Assembly (NCBI GenBank): GCA_016285345.1
Contig: JAEEQN010000004.1
Coordinates: forward strand, 39,858 to 103,857
Direction: 5' to 3'
From: Victivallales bacterium
GTDB taxonomy: Bacteria; Verrucomicrobiota; Lentisphaeria; Victivallales; UBA1829
Length of the DNA: 64,000 bases
The notes beneath the pieces are model-generated. The model ran no database searches and was not told where the DNA came from. It worked only from the letters and a program-made list of their open reading frames with translations. The first letter of the stretch is position 1. Each line of letters opens with the position of its first letter. The position numbers and the translations under genes were made by a program. This document shows positions 10,185 through 63,018 of the stretch, in pieces.

Positions 10185-10231
10185 GGAGGACAAGTCCTCC
10201 ACTGAGGCAGTGCCGGGCTTCGCTCCGGCAC
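10185..10231. repeat. Dispersed multi-hairpin (REP-like) element, copy 1
   Basis: GGAGGAC-AA-GTCCTCC, ACTG-AGG-CAGT, GTGCCGG-GCTTCGCT-CCGGCAC. Begins at the base after the TAA stop of the upstream CDS. Confidence 0.85.
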
Positions 10232-24378: not shown

Positions 24379-24425
24379 GGAGGACAAGTCCTCCACTGAA
24401 GCAGTGCGCGGCTCCGCTCGCGCAC
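24379..24425. repeat. Dispersed multi-hairpin (REP-like) element, copy 2
   Basis: GGAGGAC-AA-GTCCTCC, ACTG-AAG-CAGT, GTGCGCG-GCTCCGCT-CGCGCAC. Begins at the base after the hydA TGA stop. Confidence 0.85.
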
Positions 24426-24444: not shown

Positions 24445-24508
24445 GTGCTCTCGCGTAGCAGAGCACAGCATCGACACTGCTTGCAGTGGCCCGGCTCCGC
24501 CCGGGCAC
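24445..24508. repeat. Further hairpin modules related to the REP-like element
   Basis: GTGCTCT-cgcgtagc-AGAGCAC, CACTGC-TT-GCAGTG, GTGgCCCG-GCTCCGC-CCGGGCAC in succession. Confidence 0.6.
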
Positions 24509-38370: not shown

Positions 38371-38711
38371 CCTAAGCCGTTCGCGTCTCTGCGGTGAGGG
38401 AAATCTACCTTACTGAAAAAGAAGAGGGAGGAACCATTTACTCCCCCCCCAAAAAAGGTTTTTGCCGTTCGCATTTCTACGGTGAGGTAAATCAGCCCTG
38501 TTCGCCCCATTTTTAACCTCAGCCGTTTGCGCCTCCGCGGTGAGGTGAATCCACCTCGACAATCTAAAAAACTTAGCCGTTCGCGTCTCAGCAGTGAGGT
38601 GAATCCACCTCATTCTTCTAAAAACTCAGCCGTTCGCGTCTCAGCGGTCAGAGAAGAATCAGTACCGCAATCTAAACTCTTCTGCTATTCGCGTCTCGCG
38701 GTCAAGTAATC
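38371..38711 (+). repeat. Cluster of six imperfect direct repeats, consensus approx. cYtAGCCGTTCGCGTCTCaGCGGTGAGGTGAATCCACCTC
   Basis: Copies at about 38371, 38459, 38517, 38572, 38625 and 38680; several contain GAGGTG-AATC-CACCTC. Confidence 0.85.
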
Positions 38712-39540: not shown

Positions 39541-39580
39541 TTCGACAGATTACTTGAACGCAGAGACGCGAACGGCGAGA
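39541..39580 (-). repeat. Right arm of inverted repeat flanking the Sel1 gene
   Basis: Reverse complement tctcgccgttcgcgtctctgcgttcaagtaatctgtcgaa matches 38681-38721. Confidence 0.7.
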
Positions 39581-39662: not shown

Positions 39663-39772
39663 TCAGGATTTTTTCGGGCGCTTGATGCTGGAACGGGAGG
39701 GGGCTCGGTGCGGGAATCAGGATTTTTTCGGGCGCTTGATGCTGGAACGGGAGGGGGGCTCGGTGCGCGGGT
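39663..39772. repeat. 54-bp tandem duplication of the hrpB 3' end
   Basis: tcaggattttttcgggcgcttgatgctggaacgggaggggg(g)ctcggtgcg occurs at 39663 and again at 39717. Confidence 0.9.
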
Positions 39773-42359
39773 CCTCGGGCCAGTTGTGCTTGGGGTAACG
39801 GCCGCGCATGTCTTTCCGCACGAGGAAATACGAGCCGTCCCAGAATTCGTCCAGGTTGCGCGTGATCTGCACGGTGCGCATGGCGGGCGAAAGCAGGTCG
39901 AACACGAGCGGGACGCGTCCGCCGGCGATCTTCGGCGAATGCGCGAGTCCGAAGACCTCCTGAAGCTTCACTCGCACCATGGGGGCGGCGGGGTCGGAAT
40001 AGTCGATGGCGATGTGCGAGCCGCTCGGGACCTCGAAGCGTTCGGGCGCGAGCGAGTTCAGCGTGGACTGGGCTTTCGGCGGGAGCATGGCGGCGAAGAT
40101 CGAACGGTAATCCAGGTCCGCGAGCTTGTCAAGGCGGCTGACGCCGCCGAGGTGCGGCGCGAGCCAGTCTTCGAGCGTGTCCAGCAGGTGCTGTTCCGAG
40201 CAGTCGGGGAAGCCCTCGCAGCCGTGCACGTGCAGGAACTGGATGCGCCGGAGAAATTTGAGCTGAGCGTGGGTGATGCCGAGCGAGGCGAACCCGCGTT
40301 TGCGGACGGCGGCGATCAGAAGGACCGCGGTGTCGTCGCCGGGGCGCAGATTGGACAGCTTGCGTTCAATCGTGAGCGAACCGACCGCCTTCACGTTGAA
40401 CACGCGGACGCACAGCGCATCGTCGTCCCAGACCGTTTCGCGGCGCGTGCGGAAGAGGTCCGGCAGGGCGGCTTCGAGCTCGGCGATGTCGAGCGGGAGC
40501 GCGAGGCGGATCGTGGGCTGTCCGGAGAGTCCGCCGGAATCCGCCACGGCGAGGTATTCCGAATCGCGGAGCGGGTCGCGTGCGCCGAGCTTCGCGGTCA
40601 TGCCGTTGGAGAGCTGGTATTCGGGGCGGTCGCCGCCGGTGCGACGTCGCGCGATACGGTCGGGGTATGCCGCGGCAAGGACAAGTCCTTGACTGATATT
40701 GTGCCGGGCTTCGCTTCCGGCACGGGGAGGCGGGGCCTCCACTGCGGTTGTGCCGGGCTTCGCTCCGGCACGGGAGGACAAGTCCTCCACTGCGGCAGTG
40801 CCCGGCTTCGCTCGGGCACGGGAGGACAAGTCCTCCACTGCGGCGGTGCCGGGCTTCGCTCCGGCACGAGGAAGGGCGGCTTCGAGTTGGGAAACGGCCT
40901 GTCGGATACGGGAAAGCGTCTGACGGTCCGCAGGCAGGGCGGACGCCTTGTCGAGCACGGCGAGGCGTTCTGCGAGGTCGGCGGTCTGCGGATTGACGAG
41001 CGGATCGCGGTCGGACAGGATTGCGGCAATCTGAAGCGCCTCCCGGCGGAGTCCGTGCTCGTCGGCGAAGAGAATGGCGTTCGCGAGGCGCGGATGCACG
41101 GGCAGACGGTGCAGGAGCTTGCCGTGCGGCGTGATCTGCCCGGTCTTTGCCGAGATCGCGCCGAGTTCGGTCAGCAGGTCGAACGCGTAGTCGAGCTTGA
41201 CCTCGGGCGGCGTCGTCATCCAGGGCAGGGCGGCGGCCTTTTCGCGGACCACGCCCCAATGCGCCAGCTCCAGCGCGAGCTCGGTGAGGTCGGCATGTTC
41301 GATCTCCGGCGGGGCGAAATCCGGCATGGCGTTCTGTTCGTATTCGTGCCAGAGACGGATGCAGACGCCCGGCGCGGTGCGTCCGGCGCGCCCCCGGCGC
41401 TGTTCGGCGGACGCCTTCGATATCTTGACCGTGCGGAGCTGGTCCATGCCGGACGCGGGGGAGAAGAACGGCATGCGCGCGAGGCCGGAGTCGACGACGA
41501 TGCGGATGCCGGGGATGGTGATGCTGGTCTCGGCGACGGGCGTGGCGAGGATGATGCGGCGGCGGTCCGACGGCGCGAACACGCGGTCCTGTTCGGCGGC
41601 GGAGAGCGAGCCGTAGAGCGGGAGGACCTCGAAATCGTGGCGCATGGAGGCGAGTTCGGCGGCGGTGCGGCGGATTTCCGCCTCGCCGGGGAGAAAAACG
41701 AGCGCGTCGCCTTCGTGTTCGCGCATGGCGTCCAGCACGACCGAGGCGGCGTGCGGTTCGACGGGAGCACCGGGCTTCAGGGGCGCGTAGCTCACGCCGA
41801 CCTCGAAACAGCGTCCCGAGGCGTTGACGATCTCGGTATCGTTTCCGAGCAACCCGGCGGCGGAATCCGCATCGAGCGTGGCGGACATGAGCGCGATGCG
41901 GAGGTCGTCGCGGAGGACGGAGCGCGCGTCAAGCGTGAGTGCGAGCGCGAGATCGGCGTGAATGCTGCGTTCGTGGAATTCGTCGAAAATGACGGCGGAG
42001 ACGCCTTCCAGCGACGGGTCGCGCTGGAGCATGCGCGTGAGCAGCGCCTCGGTCACGACCTCGATGCGCGTGTCCGCCGAAACGAGCGTCTCGAAGCGCG
42101 TCCGGTAGCCCACGGTCTTCCCCGGCGGTTCGTTCAGGAGCGACGCCATGCGCCGTGCCGCGGCGCGCGCGGCGATGCGGCGGGGTTCCAGCATGACGAT
42201 CTTCCCCTCGGGCAGCACGCCCGGTTCGAGCAGGGCGAGCGGCACGACAGTGCTTTTGCCCGCGCCGGGTTCCGCCGTGATGACCAGCGGACGGCAGGCG
42301 CGCGCGGCGTCCGCGATCCGCGGCAGGACGGCGTCGACGGGGAGACCGGAGCGGATCAT
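39717..42359 (-). CDS. hrpB: ATP-dependent helicase HrpB with internal tandem peptide repeat
   Basis: VITAEPGAGKSTVVPLALLE, IFDEFHERSIHADLALAL, EQRRGRAGRTAPGVCIRLW, AAAYPDRIARRR, HrpB C-terminal domain. Confidence 0.93.
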   Translation of the reverse strand: MIRSGLPVDAVLPRIADAARACRPLVITAEPGAGKSTVVPLALLEPGVLPEGKIVMLEPRRIAARAAARRMASLLNEPPGKTVGYRTRFETLVSADTRIEVVTEALLTRMLQRDPSLEGVSAVIFDEFHERSIHADLALALTLDARSVLRDDLRIALMSATLDADSAAGLLGNDTEIVNASGRCFEVGVSYAPLKPGAPVEPHAASVVLDAMREHEGDALVFLPGEAEIRRTAAELASMRHDFEVLPLYGSLSAAEQDRVFAPSDRRRIILATPVAETSITIPGIRIVVDSGLARMPFFSPASGMDQLRTVKISKASAEQRRGRAGRTAPGVCIRLWHEYEQNAMPDFAPPEIEHADLTELALELAHWGVVREKAAALPWMTTPPEVKLDYAFDLLTELGAISAKTGQITPHGKLLHRLPVHPRLANAILFADEHGLRREALQIAAILSDRDPLVNPQTADLAERLAVLDKASALPADRQTLSRIRQAVSQLEAALPRAGAKPGTAAVEDLSSRARAKPGTAAVEDLSSRAGAKPGTTAVEAPPPRAGSEARHNISQGLVLAAAYPDRIARRRTGGDRPEYQLSNGMTAKLGARDPLRDSEYLAVADSGGLSGQPTIRLALPLDIAELEAALPDLFRTRRETVWDDDALCVRVFNVKAVGSLTIERKLSNLRPGDDTAVLLIAAVRKRGFASLGITHAQLKFLRRIQFLHVHGCEGFPDCSEQHLLDTLEDWLAPHLGGVSRLDKLADLDYRSIFAAMLPPKAQSTLNSLAPERFEVPSGSHIAIDYSDPAAPMVRVKLQEVFGLAHSPKIAGGRVPLVFDLLSPAMRTVQITRNLDEFWDGSYFLVRKDMRGRYPKHNWPEDPRTEPPSRSSIKRPKKS
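40676..40868. repeat. Four tandem copies of the REP-like element, about 48 bp each, inside hrpB
   Basis: Hairpin A at 40676, 40726, 40773, 40821; hairpin C at 40701, 40750, 40798, 40846. Encodes RAGAKPGTAAVEDLSS repeats on the minus strand. Confidence 0.92.
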
Positions 42360-62964: not shown

Positions 62965-63018
62965 GGAGGGCAAGCCCTCCTCTGCGGTAGTTTCCGGCGC
63001 GTGCCGCGCTACGGAACC
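62965..63018. repeat. Divergent copy of the REP-like element
   Basis: GGAGGGC-AA-GCCCTCC, tctgcggtagt, then GCGCG-TGC-CGCGC inside an imperfect GTTtCCG/CGGAAC stem. Confidence 0.6.

Follow-up and report, generated by a model that had tools for sequence, protein, structure and literature searches.

In-frame copies of a genus-specific REP-like hairpin repeat in the hrpB helicase gene of a Victivallales bacterium

The window, by which we mean the whole stretch of 64,000 nucleotides analysed here, comes from the genome of a Victivallales bacterium (G000), a draft MAG of 2.78 Mb in 66 contigs that is 83% complete. Positions 39717..42359 of its reverse strand encode HrpB, an ATP-dependent DEAH helicase of 880 aa (TIGR01970, 850 bits; Pfam DEAD, Helicase_C, HA2_C and HrpB_C; PDB 6eud/6heg), which is 85–90% identical to the HrpB of a closely related sheep-rumen Lentisphaeria MAG. 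This gene hosts an array of four REP-like units at 40676..40868 (+), corresponding to HrpB residues ~498–562, which was located by repeat search and by a covariance model. The element is oriented antisense to hrpB, and the 880-aa frame crosses the array with no stop codon. The covariance model, built from genomic copies, matched all four units at 53.7–75.6 bits. In coding order they are unit 1 (40821..40867, +; model R1, 72.6 bits; peptide RAGAKPGTAAVEDLSS), unit 2 (40773..40819, +; 75.6 bits; RARAKPGTAAVEDLSS), unit 3 (40726..40771, +; 53.7 bits; RAGAKPGTTAVEAPPP) and a degenerate unit 4 (40676..40723, +; 53.8 bits; RAGSEARHNISQGLVL), and PGTAAVEDLSSR is an example of a peptide spanning the array. 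An earlier note on this DNA had described four tandem copies in the open HrpB frame, 48 bp for the last two periods, and the first three peptides followed by a degenerate fourth; we recovered all of these, with copy starts spaced 49, 48 and 48 bp. Copy 4 is read in a different frame because of one extra base (GGAAGC). At the 3′ end of hrpB there is also a perfect 41-bp direct repeat (39663–39757), its copies 54 bp apart, one in the last codons of the gene and the other just past the stop.

The element is 47–50 bp long and has two hairpins: hairpin 1, GGAGGACAAGTCCTCC, is followed by a short spacer, ACTGnnn, and by a long second hairpin, GTGCxxxGCTTCGCTxxxGCAC, labelled hairpin 3. A second hairpin-1 subtype reads GGAGGCnnnGCCTCC. 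Unit 3 of the hrpB array has the hairpin-1 subtype GGAGGCGGGGCCTCC, which is present extragenically too, and unit 2 carries a compensatory stem variant, GTGCCCG/CGGGCAC, with the same stem found in extragenic copies. Across 43 copies the hairpin 3 stem was 97.9% paired, as were 98.8% of cells in the whole structure. The second hairpin is under strong compensatory change, with 53 stem cells changed on both sides versus 14 in shuffles; hairpin 1 could not covary in this alignment, because the copies had been gathered by its exact core. Folding gave z = −3.6 to −4.0. The consensus, GGAGGACAAGTCCTCCACTGnnGTAGTGCC..GGCAC, carries neither a terminal GTAG nor a terminal CGTC at the hairpin foot, and we did not place the element in those REP superfamilies; the internal GTAG ahead of hairpin 3 is a majority reading only, other copies having CAGT, GAGT or TTGT. 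An Rfam gathering search of the window returned no match. We rejected an intrinsic terminator, as the copies have no T-run and a terminator scan gave nothing at the array. Within hairpin 1, a GGAGG that resembles a Shine-Dalgarno sequence is paired with CCTCC.

With up to three mismatches allowed on both strands, the core GGAGGACAAGTCCTCC had 10 matches in the window versus 0.55 in shuffles; genome-wide it had 25 exact matches versus 0 for a reversed control. The covariance model found 130 matches in the 2.78-Mb genome, ~90 of them above 35 bits. Twelve of the 13 genus genomes carry the exact core, as against 0 of 185 further genomes from the class, and the element is a genus-specific REP-like repeat family. 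G007 has no exact copy of the core. Viral carriage was rejected, the exact core being absent from the viral contigs searched.

We placed 87 copies with a codon model for which conserved genes had served as the training set. Interior coding copies occurred in just two host genes, and several copies overlapped a gene's 3′ end. In 11 of the 52 full-length copies the first base directly follows a stop codon on the same strand, and 15 of the 52 lie within 3 nt of one, versus 0.7% of random intergenic positions. Given this concentration at stop codons, we regard the element as REP-like and strongly biased towards gene ends; it is mostly extragenic, chiefly downstream of genes. In the window, one extragenic copy (10185..10231, +; 75.2 bits) starts at the base after the upstream gene's TAA and is replaced or absent in G004, another (24379..24425, +; 73.7 bits) starts directly behind a TGA stop, where the orthologous site differs between species, and a third is diverged (62965..63017, +; 38.8 bits). 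Exact abutment on the stop codon yields TAAGGAGG, TGAGGAGG or TAGGAGG (loci L001, L004, L006, L010, L011, L015, L020 and L024).

Other hairpin repeats (CACACAAAGTGTGCCG... and GTGCTCTCGCGTAGCAGAGCAC) occur at 24445–24508 and at the orthologous G004 and G008 sites; in relatives they too start immediately past the same stop codon, a pattern that looks like competition between several hairpin families for one site. A different repeat, GAGACGCGAACGGC, forms an intergenic cluster of about six copies at 38376–38697 and recurs at 39563. Tandem units of 112–113 bp, each made of one element plus other sequence, were seen in G010:C159 and G003:C25 (L189 and L188). Searching for a mobilising enzyme, we found no Y1/RAYT (Y1_Tnp) transposase in G000 (83% complete) or in most genomes of the genus. 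DDE (rve) transposases are present, and were set aside as mobilisers because nothing ties them to the element.

We measured the hrpB linker, between SDRDPL and AAYPDR, across the genus. It was 62–64 residues long in four element-free genomes (G005, G011, G002 and G007), 63 with one unit (G001 and G009), 76 with two (G003, G006, G008 and G010), 94 with three (G004) and 108 with the four of the window, and every allele, from 0 to 4 units, stays open and in frame. A variable linker joins the ratchet (HA2) domain to the C-terminal part, and the array sits within it, just ahead of AAAYPDRIARRR, where the earlier note had put it. Linker length and sequence vary among 40 HrpBs from many phyla, and the alignment of homologues defined the insert boundaries. 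The homologues do not all have a conserved linker of matching length and unrelated sequence. As one unit gives the native linker length, the element stands in place of the native linker; the location proposed in the earlier note was correct, and what it took for an insertion looks like replacement combined with tandem expansion. E. coli HrpB structures (6eud and 6heg) align on either side of the array. In the AlphaFold model of HrpB (mean pLDDT 89), the sole segment below 50 is residues 505–553, within the array, and only the array segment is predicted to be disordered. A separate observation concerns the same linker in a MAG labelled Campylobacteraceae (L162, JALWPZ010000111.1), whose unrelated HrpB carries TIPWIPGQARNDEGYSR there. 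Its linker DNA is a palindrome, CGTCATTCCGGGCTTGACCCGGAATC, which differs from our element, is read as WIPGQARNDE and has 19 copies (≤3 mismatches) in its own genome.

A search for the unit peptide found it again in a second gene, encoding a PMT/ArnT-like glycosyltransferase (PF13231), with the element at G000:C52:70448-70494. The element is therefore not intergenic everywhere outside hrpB, as the earlier note had supposed. This copy has the same frame and orientation as the hrpB copies, with the peptide RAVAKQGTASVEDLSS. One copy is present in G000, G001, G003, G005, G008 and G010 and, decayed, in G009; G002 has three, and the site is empty in G004, G006, G011 and the outgroup G007. Relative to the empty site, CTCATCC[GG]CGCAAACAG, 47 nt replace 2 nt and add 15 residues with no target-site duplication, which together with terminal inverted repeats marks classical DDE MITEs; this is the only clean empty site, the others being too diverged. 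Fourfold-site divergence in the copy was 0.103, versus 0.108 and 0.128 in its flanks, and the copy, diverging as its flanks do, was therefore inherited with the gene. The AlphaFold model of this protein was poor (pLDDT 58) and served only to place the insert between predicted helices. In relatives, many copies that looked coding (G002:C83, G004:C30, G010:C184 and others) proved to be shadow frames or gene-adjacent copies.

All 5 spacings between full units within genes were divisible by three, versus 13 of 38 outside (P = 0.009), on counts that are small and partly dependent and that leave out the degenerate unit (49 bp). This frame conservation suggests that the array is translated. Indirect support for translation comes from G009, in which the hairpins are partly eroded and the peptide pattern RA.TKPGT.S.EDL.S is kept. 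The antisense frames of the element are open in 35–39 of 43 copies.

We consider it very probable that the array is a tolerated, neutral or near-neutral linker extension derived from the genus-specific repeat and gained or lost by whole units. A repeat of about 47 bp with two hairpins, found mainly at gene 3′ ends, would rarely land in open frames, and in hrpB it would have supplanted the unconserved stretch that links the ratchet domain to the C-terminal part. Since the antisense frames of the element are open in most copies, translation would run through it. The antisense unit, usually free of stops, would encode a hydrophilic 16-residue peptide, with the consequence that HrpB could still fold. 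Thereafter the coding copy would be inherited, and the array would behave like other tandem repeats, losing entire 48-bp units and gaining them, probably by slippage or recombination, with selection purging length changes not divisible by three. The original movement may have been as single-stranded hairpin DNA; that the element is mobile at all is suggested by its distribution.

It appears unlikely that every lineage acquired its hrpB copies by separate insertions and not from one ancestral array that gained and lost units. Such insertions would suit an array whose units belong to two subtypes, both found extragenically, with the unit 2 stem variant also occurring elsewhere in the genome, and alleles that are patchy on the tree: G011 has the element in neither gene, yet clusters with species whose hrpB contains the array, which demands losses or allele exchange between species. 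The near base-for-base sharing of units speaks against them. Unit 3 is common to G000, G003, G004, G006, G008 and G010 with 0–3 base differences, and the degenerate unit 4 to G000, G003, G006, G008 and G010, with 3 bases differing between G000 and G003. The array is therefore older than the split of these species, whose DNA is mostly 91–95% identical, and the junctions are identical within each allele class.

We regard as still less probable that the element-derived linker has a selected function in HrpB and the glycosyltransferase, as a flexible spacer, an interaction or degradation tag, or a hairpin translational pause. A function of the element would account for the frame being the same in both genes, as is the orientation, for the peptide pattern in G009 outlasting its hairpins, and for residue differences in the glycosyltransferase copy (0.042) lying below those of its flanks (0.083–0.103). 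However, the agreement in frame comes from two events with no more than six options, and an antisense frame of the element is in most cases open to begin with. Moreover, close relatives have element-free alleles of both genes, the number of units is free to vary, and the hrpB linker is unconserved across bacteria. The earlier note had left open whether the element "tolerates or exploits" coding insertion; tolerance is supported and exploitation is not, and we take the linker to be probably neutral.

An assembly artefact, in which a short-read assembler put intergenic repeats into hrpB or miscounted units, is very improbable. The genome is indeed a fragmented draft and relatives' contigs do break within element clusters, but in-frame arrays with shared, species-specific units recur in at least seven genomes that were assembled separately, and their flanks have diverged to the degree expected. 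The exact unit number in the window's hrpB, four, could be off by one unit.

In-frame elements of this kind have described counterparts. GTAG/CGTC REPs mostly follow closely on a gene, in some cases supplying the stop codon. Some lie wholly within ORFs, often clustered, and RNA helicases of the verrucomicrobium O. terrae are among the hosts; flexible linkers or loops were proposed as the sites that tolerate them (Di Nocera et al. 2013, PMC3733652). Our element resembles these intragenic REPs as a short hairpin repeat with a preference for gene ends and some copies inside ORFs. Unlike them, it has two hairpins in 47 bp and no foot tag, and no RAYT was found in G000. These are the closest described precedent; the likeness to Rickettsia RPEs drawn in the earlier note is nonetheless apt. 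As PMC10969869 describes them in the passage that summarises Ogata (2000, 2002), RPEs are palindromic and occur in frame in unrelated protein genes as well as outside genes, with RPE-1-type elements of ~150 bp that are often coding. By comparison with that description only, our element is similar in lying in frame at fold-compatible sites of hrpB and the glycosyltransferase gene, and differs in its 47-bp length and in having two host genes among 87 copies. Coxiella burnetii QMITEs are palindromic MITEs that sometimes extend or interrupt ORFs in frame (PMC5896051); ours differs in size and taxon, and tandem in-frame expansion is not noted for QMITEs in the part of that source used here. PARCELs are likewise tandem palindromic coding repeats of variable copy number, but encode a 25-residue amphipathic domain in ORFs of no assigned function (PMC2996958), whereas our element gives a 16-residue hydrophilic linker in conserved enzymes.

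In-frame hairpin repeats are thus already described and uncommon, and this element is a new example with an unusually clear allele series. Our literature search found no paper on this repeat in Victivallaceae, and in-frame REP-like elements now extend to Lentisphaeria, for which the literature searched held no earlier report. It is conceivable, though we hold it doubtful, that unrelated REP-like elements have landed repeatedly, in different bacterial phyla, in the linker between the HrpB ratchet domain and C-terminal part, the L162 palindrome being one candidate case; if so, this linker would be a natural test bed for extragenic repeats becoming protein. Within one genus, the natural series of 0, 1, 2, 3 and 4 units follows one extragenic repeat into the reading frames of two conserved enzymes. 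As close relatives retain empty sites, whether intragenic REPs and RPEs are neutral passengers or useful linkers is a question that becomes directly testable.
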